Below the pieces are notes generated by a model, which saw only the letters and a program-made list of their open reading frames with translations, had not been told where the DNA came from and made no database searches. A program made the translations under genes and the position numbers. Below, piece by piece: positions 1 through 21,522 of a stretch of 64,000 nucleotides of DNA. The number at the start of each line of letters is the position of its first letter. Positions within the stretch are counted from its first letter, which is position 1. This DNA is from Rhodocyclaceae bacterium (GTDB taxonomy: Bacteria > Pseudomonadota > Gammaproteobacteria > Burkholderiales > Rhodocyclaceae): positions 1 through 64,000 of the forward strand of contig JAUXXJ010000051.1 in NCBI GenBank assembly GCA_030681195.1, in the 5' to 3' direction.

Positions 1-255
1 CTTCTTCGCCGTGGTCAGGTGCTTCATGATTTCCTGCTCGGCGTTGGCCTTGCCTTTGTATTCCTTGGCGGTCTTCTTCAGCGACGGGCCTTTCTTGTTC
101 TTCTCGGGGTTGTGGCACTTGCCGCATTCGTTCTGCTTGAATAGCAGCTTGGCGGCATCCGCATCCACTTCCTGCGCGCTAACCGGCACGGACAGTGCCA
201 ATCCGGCGGAAGCGAAGGCAATCATGAGGGAGCGGGACAGGGAAATCTGTGTCAT
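1..255 (-). CDS. c-type cytochrome, class I, monoheme (3' end beyond window)
   Basis: Reading the minus strand from the ATG at 255 gives a signal peptide (MTQISLSRSLMIAFASAGLALS, cleaved near VSA-QE) and then one heme motif CGKCH at about residues 45-49, followed by a Lys-rich stretch typical of small periplasmic class I cytochromes c. A ribosome site GGAGAA stands just before the ATG. The gene runs off the left edge, so the distal Met ligand is not visible. It diverges from the diheme cytochrome gene at 370, and a perfect FNR-type dyad lies between them, so electron carriage under low oxygen is the likely role. The redox partner cannot be told from this sequence. Confidence 0.85.
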   Translation of the reverse strand, partial: MTQISLSRSLMIAFASAGLALSVPVSAQEVDADAAKLLFKQNECGKCHNPEKNKKGPSLKKTAKEYKGKANAEQEIMKHLTTAKK

Positions 256-320
256 GGTGTTCTCCGAACAGAGTGGGTTGAAAATAGTCACAATTCGACA
301 ATAAAAAACGCGCAAATAAC

Positions 321-334
321 TTGATGGATATCAA
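321..334. promoter_or_regulatory. FNR/Dnr-type binding site
   Basis: TTGATGGATATCAA is an exact TTGAT-N4-ATCAA dyad. It lies 66 bp before the cytochrome gene on the minus strand (start 255) and 36 bp before the one on the plus strand (start 370), so it could serve either or both. The consensus is that of FNR, Anr and Dnr; which factor binds is inference. Confidence 0.75.
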
Positions 335-369
335 GCCGAAACAGCCTACCACTATGCTCGAATCAGCGG

Positions 370-984
370 ATGGCAAACAGACAACATCTTCCAGGGCATC
401 CGAAGCTGACGACAGCTTTTGTCCTCTGCCTGTTGCTTGGCACTTCCGCACTCAGTCACGCTGGCGATCCCCAGGAAATCGTCAAGACCGTCTGTGCTGC
501 ATGTCACGGCATTGACGGCAACAGCGTCGATCCAGCCAATCCGAAACTGGCCGGCATGGATCAGGAGTACCTGATGCGTCAACTCAAGGCATTCGCTGCC
601 GGCAAACGCCGCGATGAAACCATGACCGGCATTATTGCGGGCATCGATCCTCTTGATTTTTCCAGACTGGCGGCGTACTACGGCAAGATGACGCCCACCC
701 CCGGCAAGGTCAATGATGCACAACTTGCTACCAAGGGGAAAGCGCTCTATGACGATGGAAATACCGATAGCGGCGTTCCGGCCTGCGCAGGTTGCCATCA
801 GCCGGATGGGCGGGGCAACGCCCGTTTTCCACGCGTCGCCGGTCAGCATCAAGCTTATGCTCTCAAGCAACTGGCCGACTACAAGAGCGGACGGCGCGCG
901 ACTGACCCCTTGATGACCACGGTAGGCAAGCGTTTGACGGTCGATGAAGCCAAGGCCCTGGCTGAATACATGGCCGGCCTCTGA
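370..984 (+). CDS. diheme cytochrome c, c4-like
   Basis: A 204-residue exported protein with an N-terminal hydrophobic signal (FVLCLLLGTSALSHA-GD) and two heme motifs, CAACH near residue 43 and CAGCH near residue 138, one in each of two similar halves. Each half carries the PKLAG/PRVAGQ signature that follows the heme motif in cytochrome c4. The family shuttles electrons in the periplasm to terminal oxidases and nitrogen-oxide reductases. The gene is followed after 8 bp by a second diheme cytochrome of the same type, so the two form an operon. No strong ribosome site precedes the ATG; the start is set by the signal peptide. It sits just downstream of an FNR-type box. Confidence 0.85.
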   Translation: MANRQHLPGHPKLTTAFVLCLLLGTSALSHAGDPQEIVKTVCAACHGIDGNSVDPANPKLAGMDQEYLMRQLKAFAAGKRRDETMTGIIAGIDPLDFSRLAAYYGKMTPTPGKVNDAQLATKGKALYDDGNTDSGVPACAGCHQPDGRGNARFPRVAGQHQAYALKQLADYKSGRRATDPLMTTVGKRLTVDEAKALAEYMAGL

Positions 985-992
985 AGGAGACG

Positions 993-1652
993 ATGGTGAT
1001 GCATGGTTTTTCTGCTTTCTTGTTTGCCGCCTTCGGCTGCACCCTGGCCATCGCCGAACCCCAATGGAATGCCAGCTATGCCGAAAAAACCGAGGCACTC
1101 TCCCTCAAGGGGGATGTGACCCGCGGTGAGGCGGCTTTCGTCATCTGTCAGGGCTGCCACCGCGTCGGTGCGCTAGGCCGGGCCGACGGCAGCTATCCGC
1201 GTCTTGCCGGGCAACACACCAGCGTATTGATCAAGCAACTGACCGATGTCCGTTCCGGACGGCGCAGCAACGCGAAGATGCTCCCTTTTGCCGACCACTC
1301 GGCACTGTCCGTGCAGGACATTGCCGATATCGCCGCCTTCCTTCAGCAGTTGCCGGTGCCTGCCGATCAGGGCCAGGGCAGCGGCGGCGATCTGGCGCTG
1401 GGCTTCAAACTTTACGCGAAAGATTGCGTGACCTGTCATGGCGAGCGAGGGGAGGGCAAGGCCGACCAGTTCTATCCGCGCCTGTCCGGGCAGCACTATC
1501 GCTACCTGCTGCGAGAAAACCAGCTGATCCGCGATGGCGGGCGGCGCAACGCCAACCCCAAAATGGCGGACGCGATCCGGCATTACAGCGACGAGGACCT
1601 AGCTGCGGTGGCCGATTACATCTCACGCCTGCCGCTTGCACCGGCGCGCTAA
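993..1652 (+). CDS. diheme cytochrome c, c4-like (second copy)
   Basis: A 219-residue exported protein with signal peptide (AFLFAAFGCTLAIA-EP) and two heme motifs, CQGCH near residue 52 and CVTCH near 146. The YPRLAGQH and YPRLSGQH signatures after each heme are typical of cytochrome c4-type proteins. AAGGAG stands just before the ATG at 993; a second in-frame ATG lies six bases on. It follows the first diheme gene closely. The two proteins share the fold but not close sequence, so they may serve different acceptors. The gene ends 6 bp from the convergent DUF1566 gene. Confidence 0.85.
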   Translation: MVMHGFSAFLFAAFGCTLAIAEPQWNASYAEKTEALSLKGDVTRGEAAFVICQGCHRVGALGRADGSYPRLAGQHTSVLIKQLTDVRSGRRSNAKMLPFADHSALSVQDIADIAAFLQQLPVPADQGQGSGGDLALGFKLYAKDCVTCHGERGEGKADQFYPRLSGQHYRYLLRENQLIRDGGRRNANPKMADAIRHYSDEDLAAVADYISRLPLAPAR

Positions 1653-1658
1653 CTCCGG

Positions 1659-2258
1659 TCAGGGTTTGGGCTGGCCGCGCACCAACCGAACCGCTGCCGC
1701 AGCGGCACTGTTTCCTGCGAGGATCATGCCGTGTTCGAAACTGACGAACATCGCTCCGCCCACTTCAAGCGCGACGTAGGTGCCAGTCCAGTAGTAATCG
1801 GCCAGTGAATTCGGGAAAAATCGCTCGTCGATCTTCTTCGGCAATTCGGGACGCAGCAGGCCGGCCAGTTCGTCGGCAGTCGGCAGTCGCCAGTCGTTGA
1901 AACCACACAAGCGGCGCTGGTTGGTGGCGACGACAATGCCGGTCGTATCGCAACTGCCCTTGTGCGTGCAACTGCCGCCATCGGCATATCCGACCGGGAA
2001 CCCCTCGGCCTGCTTGGTCCTGTCATACCAGGTGTAGCTCCAGCGCTTGTCGCCCGGCCCCTTGTCATCCGTCTTGACTTCCCAGACCAGGCCGGTGGTG
2101 GTATCGAGGACGCAAGGATGGGGGCGGGCACCCGACTTCGGCACCGTTTTTTTGCCCTTGGCATCAAGCGCTACATAGCTTGACGATTCAGCCAGGGCTG
2201 CGGCTGGCAGCAATATCAATGGTAGCGAAACGGCAAGGGAGCGTAGTGTGAATAGCAT
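1659..2258 (-). CDS. exported DUF1566-domain protein
   Basis: A 199-residue protein with a clear signal peptide (RSLAVSLPLILLPAAALA-ES) followed by a DUF1566 (Lcl C-terminal-like) domain: TGLVWEVKTDD, CGFNDWRLPTADELAGLL and the YYWTGTY strand near the C-terminus are its usual landmarks. Four Cys suggest disulfides in the periplasm. Function of the domain is not established. The ATG overlaps the stop codon of the ccmI-like gene by one base (TGATG), so it is translationally coupled and is the last gene of the nitrite reductase/ccmF/ccmI unit. An upstream in-frame extension to 2438 lies in ccmI and is rejected as the start. Confidence 0.75.
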   Translation of the reverse strand: MLFTLRSLAVSLPLILLPAAALAESSSYVALDAKGKKTVPKSGARPHPCVLDTTTGLVWEVKTDDKGPGDKRWSYTWYDRTKQAEGFPVGYADGGSCTHKGSCDTTGIVVATNQRRLCGFNDWRLPTADELAGLLRPELPKKIDERFFPNSLADYYWTGTYVALEVGGAMFVSFEHGMILAGNSAAAAAVRLVRGQPKP

Positions 2259-2980
2259 CAGTGTGGCGCTTTCTTCGCTTCGGCCGGCGGCTTCGGTAAG
2301 GGCATGCCGGTACCGCCGAGGCTGAGATCCAGCTTTCTTTCTGCGGTACTGACCCCTTGGGCGATCGCCTCGTGATGCTCTGTGTCTTTCGGTATTTTCT
2401 TGAGCAAACGGCGCCAGTAATGCAGTGCTTCGGCCCATTTCTCTTTCTGGAAGGCGGCCAGGCCGGCCAGTTCCAGCGCTTTTTCCTCTTCGTAACTGAT
2501 CTCCAGCGCTTCCTGGATCAGTTCCAGTGGCCGCCCCTCCAGACCGCCCTGTTTGAGCGCCATCGCTTCGGCATACTGGGCAATGATGCGTGCATCTTTG
2601 GGGGCCTGTGTCGTCGCCTTGCGCAACACCGCTTCGGCCTCGGCATAACGGTCGAAAGCAATGTAGGCGCGGCCGAGCGCATACCAGCCCTCAGGGTCGT
2701 TAGGCGTGGCTTTCAGCTTGTCTTCCAGCGCCTTCACCATGCCGTCGACGTCGTAGTTGGTCTGGGCCTGGATCAGCGCCTGCTCCGTAAGGATGCCGGG
2801 GGCGCCAAGATAGAGATACAGACCGACCGTTACTGCCGGCAGCACGCCCAACACCCCCAGCGCCGACCAGCGAACTTTGTTGCGCCGTCCCGCCAGCGCC
2901 GACTTTTGCCGCCACAAGGGCAGCAGCAGGAACAGCAGCGCAACGACGATAAATGCCCCTACCCAGATCCACAGACTCAT
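2258..2980 (-). CDS. ccmI: cytochrome c biogenesis protein CcmI/NrfG-like (TPR)
   Basis: A 240-residue protein with two N-terminal membrane helices (residues 3-22 and about 38-60) and a periplasmic TPR region (GWYALGRAYIAFDRYAEAEAVLRKAT). CcmI presents apocytochrome c to the heme lyase; in the E. coli nrf operon NrfG does this for the CxxCK site of nitrite reductase. It overlaps ccmF by 4 bp (ATGA). No ccmG or ccmH lies between or near, so this is not the ordinary ccm operon; a role dedicated to the octaheme reductase upstream is inferred. The cytoplasmic loop KSALAGR is encoded by a copy of the dispersed 24-bp element. Confidence 0.82.
   Translation of the reverse strand: MSLWIWVGAFIVVALLFLLLPLWRQKSALAGRRNKVRWSALGVLGVLPAVTVGLYLYLGAPGILTEQALIQAQTNYDVDGMVKALEDKLKATPNDPEGWYALGRAYIAFDRYAEAEAVLRKATTQAPKDARIIAQYAEAMALKQGGLEGRPLELIQEALEISYEEEKALELAGLAAFQKEKWAEALHYWRRLLKKIPKDTEHHEAIAQGVSTAERKLDLSLGGTGMPLPKPPAEAKKAPH
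2884..2907 (+). repeat. dispersed 24-bp element, copy 1
   Basis: Exact consensus copy (starts GCCGTCCCGCC, ends CGCCGACTTTT). It lies antisense within ccmI and encodes KSALAGR in the loop between the two membrane helices. Confidence 0.9.
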
Positions 2981-4887
2981 TCCTTTGCTCCTTGCTTACG
3001 TACGCCCAAGGCAGCCAGCAAACCACCCAAGGCCATCAACAGCGCCCCACCCCACAACCAACCAACGAAGGGCTTCAGATACAACTGCATGCTCCAGACG
3101 CCGCCCGGCAACGGCTCGCCCATGGCGACATAAACATCGCCAGCGAAACCGTAACGGATTGCTGCCTCGGTCATCGTCATATTGGATTTCAGATAGATGC
3201 GCTTTTCGGGCAGCAGGGTAGCAACTGTCTGGCCGTTACTTTTCAACTCAACCGTCCCGCGCATGGCGGAATAGTTCGGGCCCGGCACTTCCGCCGCGCC
3301 GCGGAAGACAAACTCGTAGCGGCCGAGACTGGCCGTATCGCCCGTTTCCATGGCGACCGTCTTCTCGCTCTGGTAAGCCGACACCAGCCCCATGCCGATG
3401 ATGCCGATGGCCAGCCCGACGTGAGCGCAGCCCATACCATACGTGGAAAGTGGCAAACTGCCCACCGCGCGCCGCCGCGCGACCAGACCCGACACGGTGG
3501 CCAGGATCATCCAGGCTGCCAGCACTAAACCCAGCGCCGCCTGCCAACGCCATGCGTCGAAGGCGAAAGGCAAGGCTAGGCCGATCAGCACGGCGACAGC
3601 AGCCTGCCAGCGCAAGCGCGGCAGTAGTTCCCGCAGACTTTCCTGCCCCCAGCGCATCCACGGCGCAATCCCCAGCAGCAATAGCACCGGAACCATCATC
3701 GGCACAAACACCGCGTTGAAATACGGTGGCCCGACGGAGATTTTGCCGAGGCCGAAGGCATCGAGTATCAGCGGATACAGGGTGCCCAGCAGGACGGTAG
3801 CCAGTGCTGCTAACAGCAGGACGTTGCCGGTCAGCATCGCCGTTTCGCGCGAAATCATGCTGAAGTTGCCCACGGTCTTCACCGCACTGGCACGCTTGGC
3901 GAAAAGAATCAGCGATGCGCCGATCAGGATGCAAAGGAAGATCAGGATGAACAGGCCGCGCAAGGGATCAAGCGCAAAGGCATGCACCGAGGAGAGCACG
4001 CCGGAACGGACCAGGAAGGTGCCGACCAGCGACAGGGCGAAGGCGGTCAGCGCGAGGAAAACGGTCCACACGCGCAAGGCACCGCGCTGTTCGGTCACCA
4101 TCAGCGAATGTAGCAGTGCCGTGCCAGCAAGCCAGGGCATCAGCGAGGCGTTCTCGCTCGGATCCCAGAACCACCAGCCACCCCAGCCCAGTTCGTAGTA
4201 AGCCCACCAGGAACCGACCATGATGCCGAGCGTGAGGAACACCCAGGCCATCAGCGTCCACGGACGCACCCAACGCGCCCAGGCCGCGTCGAGCCTGCCC
4301 GAGATGAGTGCGGCGATAGCGAAGGCGAAAGCCACCGAGAAACCGACATAGCCCATGTAAAGCAGCGGCGGGTGAATGATCATGCCCGGGTCCTGCAACA
4401 GCGGATTCAGGTCGCTGCCGTTCGCCGGCGGCGGATGCAGGCGCATGAAGGGATTGGAGGTGAACAGGAGGTAGGCGAGAAAGCAGAAGCTCAGCAGACC
4501 CATGATGCCGATCACGCGAGCGTGCAAATCGGCAGGCAACTTGCGCCCCAGCAGAACGACCGCAACGGTCCAGGCCGACATCAGCAGAGTCCACAACAGG
4601 AAGGAGCCTTCGTGCGAGCCCCAGGCTGCCGTGATGCGGTATTCGACCGGCAGGAAACGCGACGAATGGTCGGCGACGTTCATCACGGAAAAGTCGTTAA
4701 CCAGAAACGACCAGACGAGGACGAGAAAGCCCACGGCGACAAACAGCAACTGGCCGGCGGCAGCGCCACGCGCCATGGCCATCCACGCCGGGGTGTCGCG
4801 GGAGGCGCCGGTCAATCCGAGGATGCCTTGCAGCAAAGCCAGTTGCAAGGCGACGATCAGGGCGGCATGGCCAAGTTCAGGAATCAT
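2977..4887 (-). CDS. ccmF: heme lyase subunit CcmF/NrfE-type
   Basis: A 636-residue polytopic membrane protein. The heme-handling WWD signature (GWGGWWFWDPSENASLMPWL, near residues 234-253) and flanking conserved His (SHEGS near 91, HPPLLYMGY near 172) mark it as the CcmF/NrfE family, which with CcmH and CcmI ligates heme b to apocytochrome c in the periplasm. Length is typical. It follows the octaheme nitrite reductase gene after 66 bp containing a hairpin terminator, and overlaps the ccmI-like gene by 4 bp. This order (CxxCK nitrite reductase, CcmF paralogue, TPR partner) mirrors nrfA-nrfE-nrfG logic, so a lyase specialised for the CxxCK heme is likely but not proven; a housekeeping ccmF elsewhere would support it. 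Confidence 0.9.
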   Translation of the reverse strand: MIPELGHAALIVALQLALLQGILGLTGASRDTPAWMAMARGAAAGQLLFVAVGFLVLVWSFLVNDFSVMNVADHSSRFLPVEYRITAAWGSHEGSFLLWTLLMSAWTVAVVLLGRKLPADLHARVIGIMGLLSFCFLAYLLFTSNPFMRLHPPPANGSDLNPLLQDPGMIIHPPLLYMGYVGFSVAFAFAIAALISGRLDAAWARWVRPWTLMAWVFLTLGIMVGSWWAYYELGWGGWWFWDPSENASLMPWLAGTALLHSLMVTEQRGALRVWTVFLALTAFALSLVGTFLVRSGVLSSVHAFALDPLRGLFILIFLCILIGASLILFAKRASAVKTVGNFSMISRETAMLTGNVLLLAALATVLLGTLYPLILDAFGLGKISVGPPYFNAVFVPMMVPVLLLLGIAPWMRWGQESLRELLPRLRWQAAVAVLIGLALPFAFDAWRWQAALGLVLAAWMILATVSGLVARRRAVGSLPLSTYGMGCAHVGLAIGIIGMGLVSAYQSEKTVAMETGDTASLGRYEFVFRGAAEVPGPNYSAMRGTVELKSNGQTVATLLPEKRIYLKSNMTMTEAAIRYGFAGDVYVAMGEPLPGGVWSMQLYLKPFVGWLWGGALLMALGGLLAALGVRKQGAKE

Positions 4888-4901
4888 GATTCAGCTCGAT
4901 G

Positions 4902-4932
4902 AAAAAAACAGGGGCGCGGAATTCCGCGCCCC
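4902..4932 (-). terminator. intrinsic terminator between nitrite reductase and ccmF
   Basis: A perfect palindrome with 11-bp arms (4911-4932, GGGGCGCGGAA and its complement) is followed on the minus strand by a T-rich tract (TG then T7). It lies 21 bp after the reductase stop and just before ccmF, so it probably lets only part of the transcripts read on into ccmF-ccmI. Confidence 0.75.
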
Positions 4933-4953
4933 GATGCTACCGTTTCTACAGAA

Positions 4954-6732
4954 CTACTTGGCGGCCGCTACCGGAGGTGCCTTCAGGGCGGCGATCGCGT
5001 CGTTCAGCGCCTTGATGCCGGCCTGCGAGTGATTCACCGACTCGGTCAGCGACTGGCGCGCCTGTTGTGGGTTGTGGAAGCCGACGGAGTTCTCGGCCGT
5101 CCACCATTCCCAACGGGTCTGCGCTTCGTCGTGTGACTTCTGCGCCGCCTTGACCGCCTCGGAGTTGCGCGGCACGCCGGCGTCGTAGGCGCGTACAAAG
5201 GTGTCGATCAACTGGGCCAGCCAGAACTCGGCTTTGACGACCTTGCCGCGGGTGTAGGACTGAATCGCGTCGATCTGGTACTTGGCATTCTCCTCGGTCA
5301 TCTCACCGTGGCACTTCACGCAAGTTTCCTTGAGCATCTTGCGCGGCGACTGCTGCTGGTGATCGGTGAAGGTCTTGCCGTTCTTCTCGATCTTCTTCAT
5401 ATGGCAGTCCTTGCACTCGACGCCTTCGCGCTCATGCTTGGACATCCAGAAGGTCTCGGCTTCCGGGTGCTGGATCTTCGACAATGCGGAGCCAGTGATG
5501 GCGTGACGGAAGTCCTTGAAGTTGCCAAACTTCTCGCGCATCTTGGTGTTGTAGTCGAAGACGTTCGTCCATTGGAACAGGTTGGTGCGCTGGTCGGCCA
5601 TGGTGACCGGCTTGTCCTTGCCATCCGGGCCTGCATTCGGCTCGAAGCCGGGGTTGCAGTTGTACTCGACGTGGCACTGGGCGCACATCAGGTTGGAGTC
5701 GGGCTTGGACAGCAGGCCAATGGCGCGGAAACCGTCGCGGAATACCACCTTCTTCATCGGGTTCTTGGCGCTCTTTTCCTTGTCGTACGGATAGGTGCCT
5801 TCGCCGCGATCAACCACTGCCTGGATAAGGCCGTCACGCGCGACGCGCGGGGCGGACGAATGCGGGTCGTGACACATGAAGCAGTTCAGCGCATGGTTGA
5901 TGGCCTTGGCAAACTCGGCCGGCTTGGAAACGCGGCTCCACTTGGCCTTCGGGTCAGGGTCACCCATATACTTCCACTTCAGGATGTTGTCGAAGGATTT
6001 GCAGTTCATGCAGACCGGGTTGGCCGCAGTGGCCACCTGAGGCATGAAGGCCTTCTGGTCCGTGGTGCCGGGTTCCTTGTCGACCAGCATGGTGCTCCAC
6101 ATGTCCGACACGGCGCTCTTGGCGTCGGTGATGTAGGTCCAGTCCTTGAGCTGGAAGCGGCCACCGTAGGCACGATCCACGATAATGTGATCGAGAGTCA
6201 TGAAGATGTGGCTACGCGGCTCGGCGTGTTCGCGGGTAAAGCCGTGCGGCTGCATCAACTTGTCAAACATCGGCGAAACACTGCGGGGCTGGGCTTTTTC
6301 CACTTTCGCGTGCGAGTCGTAGTTCATCGTCGCGAAGGTGTTGAGCTGCTCCTGGTGACAGGTGCCGCAAGCGTGGTGGTCGACGCGAGTGCCGATTGAG
6401 GCTTCCGTCGGCGCCTTCGGCTTGCCTTCCAGCTTGAGGTGCTCATCCGAGCCGGTGTGGCAGTAGGCGCAGTTCACATCGGCATGCTTGCTGCTGACAT
6501 GAAACTCCTTGATGTCCTTGTGACAACTGTAGCAGTTATTGACATCGACGAAGTTAATCTTGGTCTTGGCCGAATTCGGCAACGAACCCTTGATTTGGCC
6601 AATCGTTGAATCCTGCTGCTTGGCATAGGCCGGATCGAGTTTCTGGGCCATGGCCCCGGACATGCCGAACACTGCGGCGGCGCATAGCGCTGCCGTGCCA
6701 GCAATCTTGCGCATCAAACCACTTGCTCCCAT
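4954..6732 (-). CDS. octaheme cytochrome c nitrite reductase (ONR/TvNiR type)
   Basis: A 592-residue periplasmic multiheme protein with a signal peptide (AALCAAAVFGMSGAMA-QK). Heme motifs in order: CYSCH 67, CAYCH 88, CGTCH 122, CMNCK 241, CFMCH 284, CAQCH 350, CKDCH 440, CVKCH 471. Seven CxxCH plus a fourth-position CxxCK is the pattern of the octaheme nitrite reductase of Thioalkalivibrio (TvNiR), which reduces nitrite to ammonium. Further matches: CHVEYNC puts Tyr357 two residues before Cys359, as in the Tyr-Cys crosslink of TvNiR, and Gln421-His422 (IQHPE) matches the active-site pair. Pentaheme NrfA is shorter with five hemes. Start at 6732 has GGGAGAAG upstream; Met7 is an alternative. 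An FNR-type box lies 78 bp upstream. The dedicated ccmF/ccmI genes follow. Confidence 0.88.
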   Translation of the reverse strand: MGASGLMRKIAGTAALCAAAVFGMSGAMAQKLDPAYAKQQDSTIGQIKGSLPNSAKTKINFVDVNNCYSCHKDIKEFHVSSKHADVNCAYCHTGSDEHLKLEGKPKAPTEASIGTRVDHHACGTCHQEQLNTFATMNYDSHAKVEKAQPRSVSPMFDKLMQPHGFTREHAEPRSHIFMTLDHIIVDRAYGGRFQLKDWTYITDAKSAVSDMWSTMLVDKEPGTTDQKAFMPQVATAANPVCMNCKSFDNILKWKYMGDPDPKAKWSRVSKPAEFAKAINHALNCFMCHDPHSSAPRVARDGLIQAVVDRGEGTYPYDKEKSAKNPMKKVVFRDGFRAIGLLSKPDSNLMCAQCHVEYNCNPGFEPNAGPDGKDKPVTMADQRTNLFQWTNVFDYNTKMREKFGNFKDFRHAITGSALSKIQHPEAETFWMSKHEREGVECKDCHMKKIEKNGKTFTDHQQQSPRKMLKETCVKCHGEMTEENAKYQIDAIQSYTRGKVVKAEFWLAQLIDTFVRAYDAGVPRNSEAVKAAQKSHDEAQTRWEWWTAENSVGFHNPQQARQSLTESVNHSQAGIKALNDAIAALKAPPVAAAK

Positions 6733-6809
6733 TTTTCTTCTCCCAGTAAATTTGTAGGGAATGCCACTACCCCTAGTAGGGAGTCTAGGAAGCAGTCATG
6801 CCAATTTCC

Positions 6810-6823
6810 TTGATACGGGTCAA
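6810..6823. promoter_or_regulatory. FNR/Dnr-type site before the octaheme nitrite reductase
   Basis: TTGATACGGGTCAA matches TTGAT-N4-ATCAA at nine of ten positions. It is centred about 84 bp before the reductase ATG in the 102-bp gap to the SirB-like gene. A single NarL-like heptamer TACCCCT (6768-6774) lies nearer the start, without a proper inverted partner. Confidence 0.65.
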
Positions 6824-6834
6824 GAAAAAACAGG

Positions 6835-7245
6835 TCAAACGAAGATCGGCAACAGGAACCCTACGGGATGCTTGCTCAAGGCCACAGAGATAATCCAGCC
6901 GAATACAACAACCGCCATGAGGCCAGCAGCGATCCGCAGCCTGGCCGGACGCCCCGCCGTCAGCGCCAACGAACCCAGTATGATGTATGCAATGAGCCCA
7001 AGCACTTTCGCCGTCAGCCAAGCATCGACAAACGGATACTGGCCGATCCGCACAGCCAGCACAAGCGCTGCCACCAGTAGGACCGTGTCATTGACATGCG
7101 GTAGCCACCGCAGCTTTCCGGAAAGCCGTCCCGCCAGCGCCGACTTTTTGGCCAGCCCCAGTCGCAAGACCCCGCGCAGACAAAACCCGCCGATACTGAG
7201 TATCACGCATGCCACATGCAGGTGTTTGATCAACGTATAGGACAC
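6835..7245 (-). CDS. SirB-family inner membrane protein
   Basis: A 136-residue, mostly hydrophobic protein with four predicted membrane helices; YTLIKHLHVACVILSIGGF at the N-terminus and the later WLTAKVLGLIAYIILG segment are typical of the SirB2 family, whose biochemical role is unknown. The start is taken as GTG at 7245 because AAGGAGG lies eight bases before it; no in-frame ATG fits. The gene is followed by the nitrite reductase promoter region and diverges from the Dnr-like regulator at 7281. Residues KKSALAGR between helices 1 and 2 come from a copy of the 24-bp element. Confidence 0.72.
   Translation of the reverse strand: MSYTLIKHLHVACVILSIGGFCLRGVLRLGLAKKSALAGRLSGKLRWLPHVNDTVLLVAALVLAVRIGQYPFVDAWLTAKVLGLIAYIILGSLALTAGRPARLRIAAGLMAVVVFGWIISVALSKHPVGFLLPIFV
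7125..7148 (+). repeat. dispersed 24-bp element, copy 2
   Basis: Exact consensus copy, antisense within the SirB-family gene, encoding KSALAGR in a loop between membrane helices. The T run extends to five. Confidence 0.9.
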
Positions 7246-7280
7246 TTGCCATACCTCCTTGAATTTTTGACTGCACCCCC

Positions 7281-7988
7281 ATGCCGCATCGCCAAACCCC
7301 GAATATTGATATCTGCGACCAAATCGCCCACCTGCCGCTGTTTCAGGCGTTGACCCCAAGCCAGATCGCCAAGATGGCCGAACACACACGCAAAAGAATT
7401 CTGCCAAAGGGAGAGGTGCTGTTTCACAAAGGCGATGTGGCGCAAGGTCTTTTTGTCGTCGTCTTCGGCCAGATCAAGCTGGCTTTTCCTTCCTGCAACG
7501 GCAATGAAAAGGTGGTGGACATCGTCGGGCCGCGCGCGAGTTTCGGCGAAGCCGTGATGTTCATCGACCAGCCCTATCCCGTTTTTGCGCAGTCGATAGT
7601 CGACAGCCTGGTATTGCATGTCGGCAAGGAGTGCGTGTTTTCCTTGCTGGAAACCGATCTCTCCTTCGCCCGAAATATGCTGGCAGGGTTGTCGATGCGC
7701 AACCATGCACTGATGCAGGATGTCGAAACCTACTCCCTGCATTCAAGTACCCAGCGGGTCATTGGCTATCTGCTGCAACACTGTCCGAATGGATCGCATG
7801 GGCGATGTGATGGGAGCGTAAGTTTTGCCTTGCCCATTTCGAAGCAAATCATTGCCTCGCGCCTCAACCTCACGCCCGAAACTTTCTCACGCATTCTCAA
7901 CGAACTCATCACTGCCCGCCTCATTCGAGTTCAAGGCCGACAGATCACGATCCCTGATATCAAGCGGCTTCGGGAACACGATCTTTGA
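7281..7988 (+). CDS. Crp/Fnr-family regulator, Dnr-like
   Basis: A 235-residue transcription factor: cyclic-nucleotide-binding-like beta-roll (residues about 20-125), dimer helix (about 128-155) and winged helix-turn-helix (186-208, ISKQIIASRLNLTPETFSRIL). The recognition helix has E200-x-x-S203-R204, the FNR-type specificity for TTGAT-N4-ATCAA. The N-terminal cysteine cluster that holds the FNR iron-sulfur centre is absent (only Cys12 there), which fits the Dnr/NnrR type that responds to nitric oxide through heme. Dyads of this type occur at 321, 6810, 14623 and 21509, so it is a candidate local controller. It diverges from the SirB-like gene and overlaps the convergent membrane protein gene by 29 bp at the 3' ends. 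Confidence 0.85.
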   Translation: MPHRQTPNIDICDQIAHLPLFQALTPSQIAKMAEHTRKRILPKGEVLFHKGDVAQGLFVVVFGQIKLAFPSCNGNEKVVDIVGPRASFGEAVMFIDQPYPVFAQSIVDSLVLHVGKECVFSLLETDLSFARNMLAGLSMRNHALMQDVETYSLHSSTQRVIGYLLQHCPNGSHGRCDGSVSFALPISKQIIASRLNLTPETFSRILNELITARLIRVQGRQITIPDIKRLREHDL

Positions 7989-9243
7989 AGTGTCGATAGG
8001 CCAGCCCAATCTGCAGCAAATTGAAGGCCAGCCAGCCGCAGTCAAGCATCAACATCAGGCCAGCCGGCCTTGCCAGAACTGGCACCCAGACCGCCAGCAG
8101 CAACACGCCCAATGTTGCAAGATGGACATGAAATTGGATGCGCATCCGTGACTCGGGCAGCATCTGATTCATGTTTGGCGGTAAGACCTGCGTGCCGCGT
8201 GTGCCGTAGTAGCGTTGGAGTTGTAGCCAGTTGATGAAAGGCATGATCTTGTAGAGCATGCCGTTGATGACACTGAAGAACACGCCGAACAGGGCCAGCA
8301 CGCCCAGCCAGACGGTAATCCGTTCATCCTCCCAAAACAGGGGAATCAAAGCCGACAGCAGCAGGAGCAGCAGCGACAGCATCGCCAGCCGAAAGAACAG
8401 GAATGAGGTATCGCTCACCTTGCGACGGCGCCGTGCATGCAGATGCAATGTCATGGCCCCATAGCTGGCCGCCACGGCAACGCCGGACAACAGCACGATC
8501 GAGCGCAGGGGTTCGGAAAAATCGGGGAACAGCGCCGACCAGATGCCCACCACGGCCACCAGCGCCCACGGCATGCCCCGCGAAAACCAGGCCGGATAGG
8601 CGGGGGTCAGCTGAAACATCGGCACCACGAAATAAGACACACCGGCGAGCAGGATCAAGGCCCAGCCGCCCAATCCCCAGGCGGCATGTACATCCGCCAA
8701 CGGCGGCAGTGGCAACAGCAACCCCTTCGCGAGGCCGGTGGCGAGCGTCACGCCGGTCGCCAGGGTGACCAGGAGCGCCGCAATCGCAATACGCAAAGCA
8801 ATGACCGTCGCCCCCTGTGCAGGCGTGCGCCACACTGCCAAGCTGACCACGACGATAAAAAACCCCAGCCCAAGCGCAAAGGTATACCCCGCCGCCATGA
8901 AAAGGCCGGGGCGCTGTGCCAGAAATGCCGCCACCAGCAGGCCGGCGGCTACCATCAGCAGCGGATGGACCAGCGCGGCCAGCCAGTGCGGGCGCCAGAT
9001 GTTGCCGCCCGTCGCCACCGGGATGAATTGCAGCAGGGCGCCGCACATCGCCTGCAACATGAACCCCGCCACGACCAGATGCACCAGCGCCAGGGTGCCG
9101 GGCGCCCAGCGTGACACGAGCAAGGCATCCCCTTGGACCAGCAGCAGCAGGCCGGCCGCGATACCGAACCACGGTGCCGTCAGGAAGAACCGGTAGGGCA
9201 CCGATATCGGCGGCGCCTGTTCGAAGGAAAGGTTCGGATGCAC
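7960..9243 (-). CDS. polytopic membrane protein, NnrS-like
   Basis: A 427-residue protein with about twelve membrane helices. Features such as LVHLVVAGFMLQAMCGALLQ and HAAWGLGGWALILLAGVSYF place conserved His residues at helix ends, as in NnrS and distant heme-copper oxidase subunit I-like proteins. NnrS is a heme- and copper-containing membrane protein that relieves nitric oxide stress; similarity here is by pattern only, so the assignment is tentative. It is the last gene of a six-gene operon that also encodes DUF2249, hemerythrin and a diiron MBL protein. Its 3' end overlaps the Dnr-like regulator gene. Confidence 0.6.
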   Translation of the reverse strand: MHPNLSFEQAPPISVPYRFFLTAPWFGIAAGLLLLVQGDALLVSRWAPGTLALVHLVVAGFMLQAMCGALLQFIPVATGGNIWRPHWLAALVHPLLMVAAGLLVAAFLAQRPGLFMAAGYTFALGLGFFIVVVSLAVWRTPAQGATVIALRIAIAALLVTLATGVTLATGLAKGLLLPLPPLADVHAAWGLGGWALILLAGVSYFVVPMFQLTPAYPAWFSRGMPWALVAVVGIWSALFPDFSEPLRSIVLLSGVAVAASYGAMTLHLHARRRRKVSDTSFLFFRLAMLSLLLLLLSALIPLFWEDERITVWLGVLALFGVFFSVINGMLYKIMPFINWLQLQRYYGTRGTQVLPPNMNQMLPESRMRIQFHVHLATLGVLLLAVWVPVLARPAGLMLMLDCGWLAFNLLQIGLAYRHFKDRVPEAA

Positions 9244-9261
9244 GCGGAAACGGCCTCCGGA

Positions 9262-9501
9262 TCAGGCGTGGCGGATACGAATCTCGTGCGTACCGTCTTC
9301 GCGCATGGACTCCGTCCAGACAAAACCGTTCTTGCGCAGGATGTTGAGCAACGGTACGGGATGGCAATAAATCAACAGCAGCAATTCTCTCCCCGGTGGC
9401 AGGACATCCAGCGCCGCCAGGGTTTTTTCCATGGGTTCGGGCGGCTGCATATCGCGGCCGTCGACCACCAGATCAGCGGACTTGTCTAGGTCATCTGGCA
9501 T
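9262..9501 (-). CDS. DUF2249-domain protein
   Basis: A 79-residue protein with the DUF2249 pattern: VVDGRDMQPPEPMEKTL at the N-terminus, LLLLIYCHPVPLLNILRKNGF in the middle and a short C-terminal strand (HEIRIRH). The domain is a small TusA-like fold often found beside hemerythrins in denitrifier clusters; its function is unknown. The start overlaps the end of the hemerythrin gene by 16 bp, so the two are coupled. Cys46 in YCHP is the only cysteine. Confidence 0.8.
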   Translation of the reverse strand: MPDDLDKSADLVVDGRDMQPPEPMEKTLAALDVLPPGRELLLLIYCHPVPLLNILRKNGFVWTESMREDGTHEIRIRHA

Positions 9502-9977
9502 GCCAGATCAATCCTGTCTTGCAGTTGCCGGCCCAGGACCGCTTCCTGAGGTGCCAGACTGCGATCGCACATCGGGTAGAGAATGTTTTCTTCCTTCATG
9601 TTGTGCTGTTGCATGAGGATCAGGAGGGTTTCAGCCACACCACCGAAACCTTCGCGATCTTCCACTGCCAGCGTCGTCTGCATCTGCCCGATCAACTCGC
9701 GCATCTGTGCATGTTCGAGGCGCATCATCTGCGTGGGGCCAATCGTCATACCGGTTTCCGCCTCGAAGGCCGGAAACAGCAACTCTTCCTCGGTACGAAA
9801 ATGGCACTCGATCTCGGTTTGGAAGCGCGTCACGCTTTCCTTGGCACGGAGCCAATCGCCCCCGAGCGCCACGGCCTCGGCGTCAGCAAACAAATCATCG
9901 CAATGCTTGTGGTGATGCTGGAGGGGATCAGTCAATGCAGCCATCTTCAAAAACCATTCAATGTCAGGAACCGTCAT
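9486..9977 (-). CDS. hemerythrin HHE-domain protein
   Basis: A 163-residue four-helix bundle with diiron ligands in order: HHHKHCDDLF, HFRTEEELLFP (HxxxE), EHAQM, and QQHNMKEENILYP (HxxxE). Such proteins bind O2 or NO in the cytoplasm. The start is set at the ATG at 9977; a TTG at 10013 and an ATG at 9944 are alternatives and none has a strong ribosome site. It lies in the operon between the ODP-type MBL gene (36 bp upstream) and the DUF2249 gene. Confidence 0.85.
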   Translation of the reverse strand: MTVPDIEWFLKMAALTDPLQHHHKHCDDLFADAEAVALGGDWLRAKESVTRFQTEIECHFRTEEELLFPAFEAETGMTIGPTQMMRLEHAQMRELIGQMQTTLAVEDREGFGGVAETLLILMQQHNMKEENILYPMCDRSLAPQEAVLGRQLQDRIDLACQMT

Positions 9978-10013
9978 TCTCGGTACCTTTACCTTCGGGC
10001 ACCTTGACTGCAA

Positions 10014-10754
10014 TCAACCTTTGACGATACCGACCTCAAGGTGGGAGAACCAGTCGATGAAACGCCGCACCTGATCGCCACGATAGATAGCGCCGTGCTG
10101 CGGACACATCATCTCGATGTCAAGCTGGCTGACACGCTGACACCAGTCGCGCTTGGCCTTGTCCGAGCCCATCCAGCGGCGATGAAAACCTTCGGCATGG
10201 CGAATGTGGCGATCGAAATCTTCGAAGAACAAATCGTCTTCGCCCGGCGGCAGCAAGGCGGCGCCGACATCGCCGGAGAACAGGATCTTGGCCTTGGGGT
10301 CGTAGAGGTGGAAGTTGCCCGAGGAATGCAGATAGTGGGCGGGAATCGCCTGCAGGCGCTGGCTGCCGATCATGATGTCCATGCCGCCATCCGGAATGGA
10401 AATGAAGGTTTCCTTGTTGCCGCCGAAGTGGGGCACGAAGCTCGCCCACAGCCAGCTGATGTAGCACTTCACCTGAGGATTGAACTCCAGCCACAGGGCC
10501 AGCGAGGAAATGATATCCGGATCCTGGTGACTGGCGAACAGCTTGGTGATCTTGCGCGGATCAAACTCGGTCGACAGGGCCGAAAATACGGCCGGGAATA
10601 CCTCGTTGCCACCCGGGTCGAGCAGCAGCGAATCGTCGTCGTCAATCACCAGATATTCGTTGCTGTCGATCAGGTAATCCGGACGATTGGGGTCGCGCAC
10701 CAGCGCAATCCATTTGTGCTTGCCATCTTCGTAAATGACACGGGCGGTTTTCAT
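10014..10754 (-). CDS. MBL-fold diiron protein of the ODP/flavodiiron type
   Basis: A 246-residue metallo-beta-lactamase fold. Metal ligands match the flavodiiron core: H76-Q-D78-P-D80, H143 (AHYLHSSGN), D162 (FSGDVG) and H220 (CPQHG). The C-terminal flavodoxin domain of true flavodiiron NO/O2 reductases is absent. Stand-alone proteins of this kind (ODP, oxygen-binding diiron proteins) are known to act as oxygen sensors for chemotaxis in Treponema. Here the gene overlaps by 4 bp a soluble chemoreceptor-like gene, which strongly suggests the same pairing. A redox enzyme using a separate flavodoxin or rubredoxin is the alternative. Confidence 0.82.
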   Translation of the reverse strand: MKTARVIYEDGKHKWIALVRDPNRPDYLIDSNEYLVIDDDDSLLLDPGGNEVFPAVFSALSTEFDPRKITKLFASHQDPDIISSLALWLEFNPQVKCYISWLWASFVPHFGGNKETFISIPDGGMDIMIGSQRLQAIPAHYLHSSGNFHLYDPKAKILFSGDVGAALLPPGEDDLFFEDFDRHIRHAEGFHRRWMGSDKAKRDWCQRVSQLDIEMMCPQHGAIYRGDQVRRFIDWFSHLEVGIVKG

Positions 10755-14622: not shown

Positions 14623-14636
14623 TTGATCTGCATCAA
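14623..14636. promoter_or_regulatory. FNR/Dnr-type site before usp
   Basis: TTGATCTGCATCAA is an exact TTGAT-N4-ATCAA dyad, centred about 64 bp before the usp start codon at 14693, a distance that would suit class II activation with a short leader. Control of usp genes by Anr/FNR is known in other proteobacteria. Confidence 0.75.
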
Positions 14637-14692
14637 TCGTCGTGCGGCGGCCGCAAGCTCACTTACGACAGCTCACTTTTTGGAGGAAAGCC

Positions 14693-15136
14693 ATGTTCAA
14701 GCATATCCTCGTCCCAACCGACGGTTCCGCGCTTTCTACTGACACTGTCAAGAAGGCCATTGAATTCGCCCGCGAAGCCGGTGCCCGCATTACCTTCTTC
14801 TACGCCAAGCCGGAATATCCAGTCAGCTTCTATGGCGAAGGGGCTTTAATTGATCCCACCACCCCGGAGAAATTCGCCGAACTGGCTGAGGAGCAGGCGC
14901 AGACACTGTTAGCGTCCGCAGAGTCACAGGCAAAGTCCCGTGAGGTACCTTGTGCCAGCGTGGCCATTACCAGTGACGTGCCCTACGAGGCCATCATCGC
15001 TGCGACTGAGCAGGCGGGCTGTGACATGATCTTCATGGCGTCACATGGGCGCCGCGGTATCAGTGGCCTGCTCTTGGGCTCAGAAACCCAGAAGGTGCTC
15101 ACGCACTCAACGGTTCCCGTTCTCGTATACCGCTAA
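14693..15136 (+). CDS. universal stress protein, UspA family
   Basis: A 147-residue single-domain USP: MFKHILVPTDGS at the N-terminus, and the ATP-binding G-x2-G-x9-G(S/T) region as ASHGRRGISGLLLGSETQKV near the C-terminus. The family supports survival in stress and anoxic stationary phase. The start is the ATG at 14693 with GGAGGAAA eight bases upstream; the longer frame from 14642 has no ribosome site. It is preceded by an exact FNR-type dyad and followed after 7 bp by a hemerythrin gene. Confidence 0.9.
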   Translation: MFKHILVPTDGSALSTDTVKKAIEFAREAGARITFFYAKPEYPVSFYGEGALIDPTTPEKFAELAEEQAQTLLASAESQAKSREVPCASVAITSDVPYEAIIAATEQAGCDMIFMASHGRRGISGLLLGSETQKVLTHSTVPVLVYR

Positions 15137-21508: not shown

Positions 21509-21522
21509 TTGACCCAGGTCAA
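21509..21522. promoter_or_regulatory. FNR/Anr-type site before ccoN
   Basis: TTGACCCAGGTCAA is a perfect dyad with one change per half-site from TTGAT-N4-ATCAA. It is centred about 121 bp before the ccoN start. FNR/Anr control of ccoNOQP is well known in proteobacteria. Confidence 0.65.

Follow-up and report, generated by a model that had tools for sequence, protein, structure and literature searches.

How the one unusual heme of an octaheme nitrite reductase (ONR) is installed is the question raised by a locus within a stretch of 64,000 nucleotides from a Rhodocyclaceae bacterium (hereafter the window), in which an onr gene is followed by genes for a second CcmF/NrfE-type heme lyase and a TPR protein. 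In pentaheme NrfA, the CXXCK heme is attached by NrfEFG (PMC3601427). The protein that recognises CXXCK is called unclear in a 2025 review, the accessible part of which does not discuss ONR maturation (PMC12285233). An ONR-dedicated lyase is likewise not described in the accessible parts of the literature on ONR and its maturation, subscription papers lying outside the search. The accessible part of a 2011 review lists NrfA in 55 species, at times with seven CXXCH motifs, and places it in one operon with NrfEFG in 18 of these (PMC3601427), so the linkage of onr to a lyase may have been seen earlier without being singled out. The locus described here probably encodes a periplasmic ONR forming ammonium from nitrite, a lyase/TPR pair dedicated to its CXXCK motif, and an FNR-type box that switches the set. 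The enzyme gene and its key elements are as follows.

4954..6732, minus strand: octaheme nitrite reductase (ONR, TvNiR type); 592 aa, ATG start, no internal stops
N-terminus of the 4954..6732 product, minus strand: Sec-type signal peptide, read by eye
5998..6012, minus strand: CMNCK codons in the sequence, the fourth and active-site heme motif, with Lys245 last
5656..5664, minus strand: Tyr357-Asn358-Cys359 codons in the sequence, the predicted Tyr-Cys crosslink pair

The eight heme motifs start at residues 67 (CYSCH), 88 (CAYCH), 122 (CGTCH), 241 (CMNCK), 284 (CFMCH), 350 (CAQCH), 440 (CKDCH) and 471 (CVKCH). Seven are thus CXXCH and one, the fourth of eight, is CXXCK, as the initial annotation had read them; NrfA has five hemes with CXXCK first. 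In the accessible part of PMC5433712, ONR is defined by seven CXXCH motifs, one CXXCK motif and a named active-site Tyr, Arg and Cys, all of which the window protein carries (Tyr357, Arg187, Cys359 and the motif set). Six active-site residues (Arg187, Lys245, Tyr357, Cys359, Gln421 and His422) align with TvNiR Arg131, Lys188, Tyr303, Cys305, Gln360 and His361, the TvNiR-chain numbers being counted off the HMMER alignment to 2zo5. The aligned TvNiR residues have catalytic roles. The Tyr, Arg and Cys among them are those named in PMC5433712. Tyr357, Cys359, Gln421 and His422 lie exactly where the initial annotation placed them, and Arg187 and Lys245 complete the set.

These six residues are invariant in 83 of 83 ONR rows, a set composed of the window protein, the 80 closest loci kept of 292 relatives and two further rows, whose candidates were picked by patterns, one of them including CHVE but not the Cys; L040 has an internal stop, and two rows show fewer than eight motifs because of contig ends. 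At the Tyr-x-Cys position, three NrfA sequences, one from E. coli and two from genomes of the family, have YYF and lack the Cys, which makes the Cys ONR-specific in the present sample. The residue pair to which the initial annotation drew attention is therefore present, but it is a property of the whole family and not peculiar to the window protein. The Tyr-Cys crosslink of TvNiR is visible in a cryo-EM map (PMC6209398) and is stated in a review (PMC12285233), in the accessible part of each; a Tyr357-Cys359 thioether is predicted for the window ONR from its aligned residues. The periplasmic enzyme would reduce nitrite to ammonium with six electrons at the Lys245-ligated heme 4, with the seven bis-His hemes carrying electrons and the thioether tuning the active-site tyrosine.

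The window ONR is 54-55% identical to TvNiR, which is also its best match among solved structures (2zo5; 647 bits, E 2.1e-193, 523 residues), a sequence match far beyond chance. In a tree of 80 rows (without L005, L007, L015, L037, L040 and L054), all 77 ONR rows fall on one side of an outgroup of three NrfA with a split support of 100. An AlphaFold2 model built from a 44-row alignment (pLDDT 84, pTM 0.83) matches TvNiR (3f29) with a Z of 48.7 and an rmsd of 1.7 over 510 residues. Two NCBIfam NrfA-type models score the protein at 100.6 and 78.8 bits, their cut-offs being 595 and 692.5. Sequence, tree and predicted fold, which include the structure comparison with TvNiR and the phylogeny with NrfA proposed in the initial annotation, support its assignment of the protein to the TvNiR family of ONR. 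The enzyme itself is a further, ordinary member of an already known and fairly rare family: the accessible part of a 2023 survey gives 106 onr versus 1155 nrfA non-redundant sequences (PMC10716430), in agreement with the earlier remark that ONR is uncommon beside NrfA.

The genome of the window (G000) comprises 3.66 Mb in 58 contigs and is 99.96% complete. With an E threshold of 0.001, the ONR is its sole match to the cytochrome c552 family, so no NrfA was found in it at that threshold. A NapA gene (1447 bits) is located on a contig other than that of onr, three NirS-type d1 matches share one contig, and four NapC/NirT-type proteins above cut-off are encoded elsewhere in the genome. At the genome level, this gene content supports a putative denitrifying (NirS-type) and a putative ammonifying (ONR) nitrite route in one organism, the ammonium-forming capacity next to denitrification that had been suggested from the window alone. 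The nearest ONR relatives, 91% identical, belong to Rhodocyclaceae MAGs. Among 150 family genomes, an ONR-type match was found in six (G000 included) and an NrfA-type match in two, the types being judged by score (>500 versus about 160-190 bits); three further drawn genomes of the window's genus gave no cytochrome c552-family match. A very divergent ONR-like protein (L163, G017:C40:80000-95000; branch 1.2) keeps the six active-site residues, and its genome holds a single CcmF.

The regulatory elements of the window and the genes beside them are listed here.

321..334, no strand assigned: FNR/CRP-type box TTGATGGATATCAA, before the diheme genes
370..984, plus strand: diheme cytochrome c, weakly PdsA-like (67 bits, cut-off 330)
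993..1652, plus strand: second diheme cytochrome c
6810..6823, no strand assigned: FNR/CRP-type box TTGATACGGGTCAA, centred about 85 bp upstream of the onr ATG
7281..7988, plus strand: CRP/FNR-family regulator, without an N-terminal cysteine cluster as judged by eye
10004-10017: FNR-type box, at the hemerythrin/ODP gene pair
14623-14636: FNR-type box, directly before the universal stress protein gene 14642-15136
21509-21522: FNR-type box, before cbb3 oxidase genes (ccoNOP, FixG and FixH types by Pfam)

The pattern TTGAYNNNNRTCAA occurs six times in the window versus 0.25 expected, and six occurrences were reached in none of 100 shuffles. Of 21 loci chosen for a match starting near the N-terminus, 7 have an exact box upstream of onr; of 13 loci, 7 have one ahead of the first diheme gene. 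The spacer bases vary in both cases. Through this box, low oxygen or nitrogen oxides would induce the onr set. Since the box is common to onr and the diheme genes, the two diheme cytochromes are possible electron carriers to ONR; a NapC/NirT-type protein is the other candidate donor. Beside the CRP/FNR regulator, 7960-9243 (minus strand) encodes a 427-aa hydrophobic protein, a 36% identical relative of which directly follows onr in L050. The name nnrS is unsupported for this protein, which has no match in Pfam, NCBIfam or PHROGs. Adjacent genes at 9486-10754 (minus strand) encode a hemerythrin-domain protein and an ODP-family protein of the metallo-beta-lactamase fold.

Both the gene content and the boxes bear on what the enzyme is for. 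ONR may instead be a detoxifier of nitrite, NO, hydroxylamine, peroxide or sulfite in an organism that respires nitrite with NirS, a role consistent with the NirS-type and NapA genes of the genome, the ODP-family protein and hemerythrin encoded nearby, and the reduction of hydroxylamine, sulfite and peroxide by ONRs (PMC5433712, accessible part). Between onr and the genes flanking it, no NrfH- or NrfBCD-type gene was observed, which also fits this role; the four NapC/NirT-type proteins encoded elsewhere could nevertheless supply electrons, and the FNR-type boxes, one of which also precedes the cbb3 oxidase genes, suit an anaerobic respiratory regulon. We regard detoxification as a serious possibility, yet the less probable one, and favour ammonium formation from nitrite under control of the FNR-type box.

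The genes that would install the active-site heme lie directly downstream of onr.

2977..4887, minus strand: second heme lyase of CcmF/NrfE type, separated from onr by 66 bp; WWFWD, the four conserved His and Leu249 in the WWD domain
2258..2980, minus strand: TPR protein, CcmI/NrfG-like; its start overlaps the lyase stop by 4 bp

Neither gene was mentioned in the initial annotation. The lyase scores 381 bits with CcmF_C and 730 bits with the CcmF/NrfE family. It falls under the cut-off of the NCBIfam model cyt_nit_nrfE (714 versus 927.3 bits) and exceeds that of the PRK10369 NrfE model (500.3 versus 394), so the profile models give no clean split from NrfE. The four His of E. coli CcmF and the WWD domain, which mark the CcmF superfamily, are kept. 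The TPR protein shares 28% identity with CcmI of the same genome and, over the TPR part, 25% with E. coli NrfG, and both genes are under purifying selection (dN/dS 0.08-0.11 versus two relatives). A ccmABCDEFGHI run, its genes named by eye from ORFs and its CcmF by family match, is located on contig C52, separate from the onr contig; G000 thus has two CcmF genes, one in the ccmA-I run and one beside onr, which are 58% identical. No NrfF/CcmH-like LRCxxC protein was found in window positions 1-9300, where the lone pattern match lies in a stop-broken frame; the accessible part of PMC3601427 reports NrfF as non-essential in E. coli. The CcmF paralogue and the CcmI/NrfG-like TPR chaperone would form an ONR-dedicated lyase that attaches the CXXCK heme, and the general Ccm system would serve the seven CXXCH motifs and supply the remaining Ccm parts.

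The arrangement recurs in other genomes. Among the 80 closest onr loci of 292, a CcmF-type gene was observed directly downstream in 20 and about 3 kb downstream in 22, and none was seen in 38. Since 22 of these 38 have less than 5 kb of downstream sequence, 16 are informative negatives, in which CcmF was not found within at least 5 kb (16 of 80 loci); they belong to Nitrospirota (6), Pseudomonadota (4), Bipolaricaulota (2), Ignavibacteriota (2), Myxococcota (1) and one genome with no phylum given. A relative of the TPR protein is present in 19 of the 20 direct-type loci, the exception (L072) being a contig that ends inside the lyase. The whole ccm operon beside onr was read in one three-kb locus, L057, the other 21 being known by CcmF position. 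Four onr loci come from Thioalkalivibrio MAGs; three have a CcmF-type gene directly downstream, and the contig of the fourth ends just past onr. Within the six ONR genomes of the window's family, the lyase adjoins onr on the contig in G000, G066, G084 and G105, and in G025 a second CcmF on its own short contig groups with the onr-linked CcmF of another genome; G017, the genome of L163, has one CcmF. The cluster is also present in Propionivibrio dicarboxylicus DSM 5885 (L030). The gene next to onr on its downstream side in a Nitrospirae MAG (L021:7616-8845) encodes another protein with eight CxxCH/K motifs, which may be a redox partner.

The two arrangements differ in CcmF copy number, counted for 39 of 40 chosen loci (L006 left out), many from small MAGs: two CcmF genes are present in 17 of 18 direct-type genomes, the exception being a 1.7 Mb MAG (G156), and a single CcmF is present in 20 of 21 three-kb-type genomes. 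In G166, each copy is linked to an onr, on the contigs of L069 and L076, which leaves 16 of the 18 direct-type genomes with a linked and a separate copy. G166, a Thioalkalivibrio MAG, has two onr+CcmF loci on short contigs, which may be two copies or a strain mixture. In three close relatives (L002, L003 and L018), the onr-linked copy shares its contig with the other CcmF at a distance of about 9 kb, whereas in the window genome the other CcmF is on another contig. Extra CcmF copies were rejected as an indicator of ONR, since two or three full-length copies also occur in several genomes of the family that lack an NrfA/ONR-strength match; the argument is therefore based on adjacency and ancestry instead.

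In a CcmF tree of 77 rows, from which the fragments L006 and L054 and six duplicates were dropped, the window lyase falls within a clade of 17 lyases located directly after onr (SH-aLRT 100), and the genome's own CcmF groups with the CcmF of another genome of its genus. A topology uniting 9 onr-linked lyases and 9 NrfE in one clade was rejected (lnL 127 lower, AU p 6.1e-10), a result to be read with caution given the long NrfE branches. The rejection suggests that the window lyase derived from CcmF separately from E. coli-type NrfE. The trees split the onr-linked lyases, yet a test on 14 rows does not reject a common clade for them (AU p 0.23).

A comparison of the clade of 17 with 32 general CcmF yielded six discriminating columns. 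Residue 249, the counterpart of E. coli CcmF Phe250, is the last of WWFWDPxENAS(F/L). In the first set, Leu249 was observed in all 21 lyases directly after onr, in L165, in L050 and in E. coli NrfE; Phe was observed in general CcmF and in 20 of 21 CcmF about 3 kb after onr. A class-wide draw of 369 genomes gave five strong PF02335 matches, and the sampling was moved to one order; the resulting wider set holds 93 further CcmF-type stretches, some of them duplicates. Second CcmF copies of NrfA genomes carry Leu in 16 of 18 cases, 13 of the 16 being at most 5 kb from NrfA (the copies of G608, G628 and G646 are not), and Phe in two, both from family f188. We guess that these two are possible SirE, and they were set aside from the count. 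In total, all 40 lyases scored as dedicated carry Leu, against 8 of 119 others, the remaining 111 having Phe; with L050 and L165, labelled dedicated post hoc on account of two CcmF per genome, left out of the dedicated group, the figures become 38 of 38 versus 10 of 121. The eight Leu among the others comprise three CcmF that are the sole copy of their genome and five general copies, four of them from NrfA genomes and one from an onr genome. The count omits L207 and L208 (partial; L208 has a different reading at the position of residue 249) and L234, L248, L249, L257 and L261 (duplicates), and L055 and L260, unscored by the pattern, are both Phe by eye.

Mapped on the tree, the Leu/Phe difference reduces to three independent contrasts, which agree with one another (sign test p 0.25). 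Two f188 genomes with NrfA have a single CcmF each; it must serve CXXCK yet has Phe, so Leu is not required. No such specificity residue of the WWD domain is discussed in the accessible part of PMC10663686. With three independent contrasts, Leu249 is a candidate specificity residue, weaker than at first sight: a lead, not a result. A bolder scenario, in which Proteobacteria ONRs recruited CcmF as a CXXCK lyase independently of NrfE and both converged on a Phe-to-Leu change in the heme-handling WWD domain that reshaped or loosened the pocket for a lysine-ended motif, strikes us as speculative and rather unlikely; if true, it would reduce the question of CXXCK recognition to a single-residue experiment.

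The same data bear on whether the linked CcmF/TPR pair is merely a second general heme lyase carried with onr, with no CXXCK preference. The retained CcmF His residues and WWD motif would fit such a lyase, and the single CcmF of other onr genomes must handle both motifs, as must that of Shewanella (PMC6976685, accessible part). This reading is nonetheless improbable in view of the near-clean split in copy number between the direct and three-kb arrangements, the separate clade of 17 and a WWD residue that is common to NrfE and rare in general CcmF. Moreover, all 13 CcmF from six family genomes that lack an NrfA/ONR-strength match and were picked for extra copies have Phe. Shewanella is reported to mature its CXXCK NrfA without a dedicated lyase (accessible parts of PMC6976685 and PMC12285233), which together with the single-CcmF onr genomes indicates that a second lyase is not always needed, and linkage of onr and lyase can also reflect joint transfer; the 16 informative negatives, the single CcmF of G017 and the PRK10369 score weigh against a dedicated lyase as well. 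From linkage and copy number, we infer that the linked lyase likely attaches the CXXCK heme and was recruited in parallel with NrfE.

A dedicated lyase of this kind would add to what is known an account of how the odd heme of ONR may be installed, and may bear on why ONR might fail to mature in a host with the general Ccm system only. A CcmF-derived lyase that appears independent of NrfE, together with a candidate specificity residue, offers a natural comparison, and such an apparent parallel counterpart of NrfE makes CXXCK heme maturation testable.

Placement in the tetrathionate reductase (OTR) or HAO clades had been named as contrary to the ONR reading; of the remaining octaheme groups, HAO and MccA are distant. 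Sequence matches among solved structures at E up to 1 number 22, nine ONR and thirteen pentaheme NrfA; the Trichlorobacter ONR reaches 463 bits and all NrfA are at or below 104.4 bits, and HAO, OTR and MccA gave no match at that threshold. The ONR model gives Z 44.4 with the Trichlorobacter ONR, 28.1 with NrfA, 9.4 with HAO and 9.2 with MccA, so neither HAO nor MccA is the closest fold; OTR is not among the 50 fold matches listed, which excludes nothing. Membership of the HAO, OTR or MccA groups, to which the eight hemes and the distant fold likeness to HAO and MccA might point, is extremely improbable against matches confined to ONR and NrfA and a Z of 48.7 to TvNiR.

Among known systems, TvNiR of Thioalkalivibrio nitratireducens (2ot4, 3f29, 3rkh) is the closest, sharing with the window ONR the eight hemes, CXXCK in fourth place, the six residues, Tyr-x-Cys and the fold. 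The window ONR differs in about 20-25 extra residues between the end of the eye-judged signal peptide and the first heme motif, and its locus differs in the two diheme cytochromes nearby and in having its closest relatives in Rhodocyclaceae MAGs. The ONR of Trichlorobacter ammonificans (8rv0) is of the same type and more distant than TvNiR (Z 44.4, 45% identity); this organism likewise bears Nap, and the ONR gene of its relative T. lovleyi is said to follow the nap genes (PMC11972089, accessible part), whereas NapA of the window genome is on another contig.

With E. coli NrfA and NrfEFG, the locus shares a CXXCK active-site heme, the tyrosine, and neighbouring genes for a CcmF paralogue and a TPR protein. 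E. coli NrfA differs in being pentaheme and in reading YYF, with Cys absent next to the Tyr, and the lyases appear separate in ancestry (AU p 6e-10); in contrast to the E. coli system, no NrfF-like LRCxxC protein was found in positions 1-9300 of the window, and NrfBCD was not seen beside onr. The possible SirE of family f188, a guess of ours, has Phe at the WWD position. SirEFG of Shewanella resembles the arrangement proposed here in that paralogues of CcmF, CcmH and CcmI are reserved for a single octaheme cytochrome whose heme site is unusual (PMC6976685, accessible part); the site it serves is CX12NKGCH and not CXXCK.
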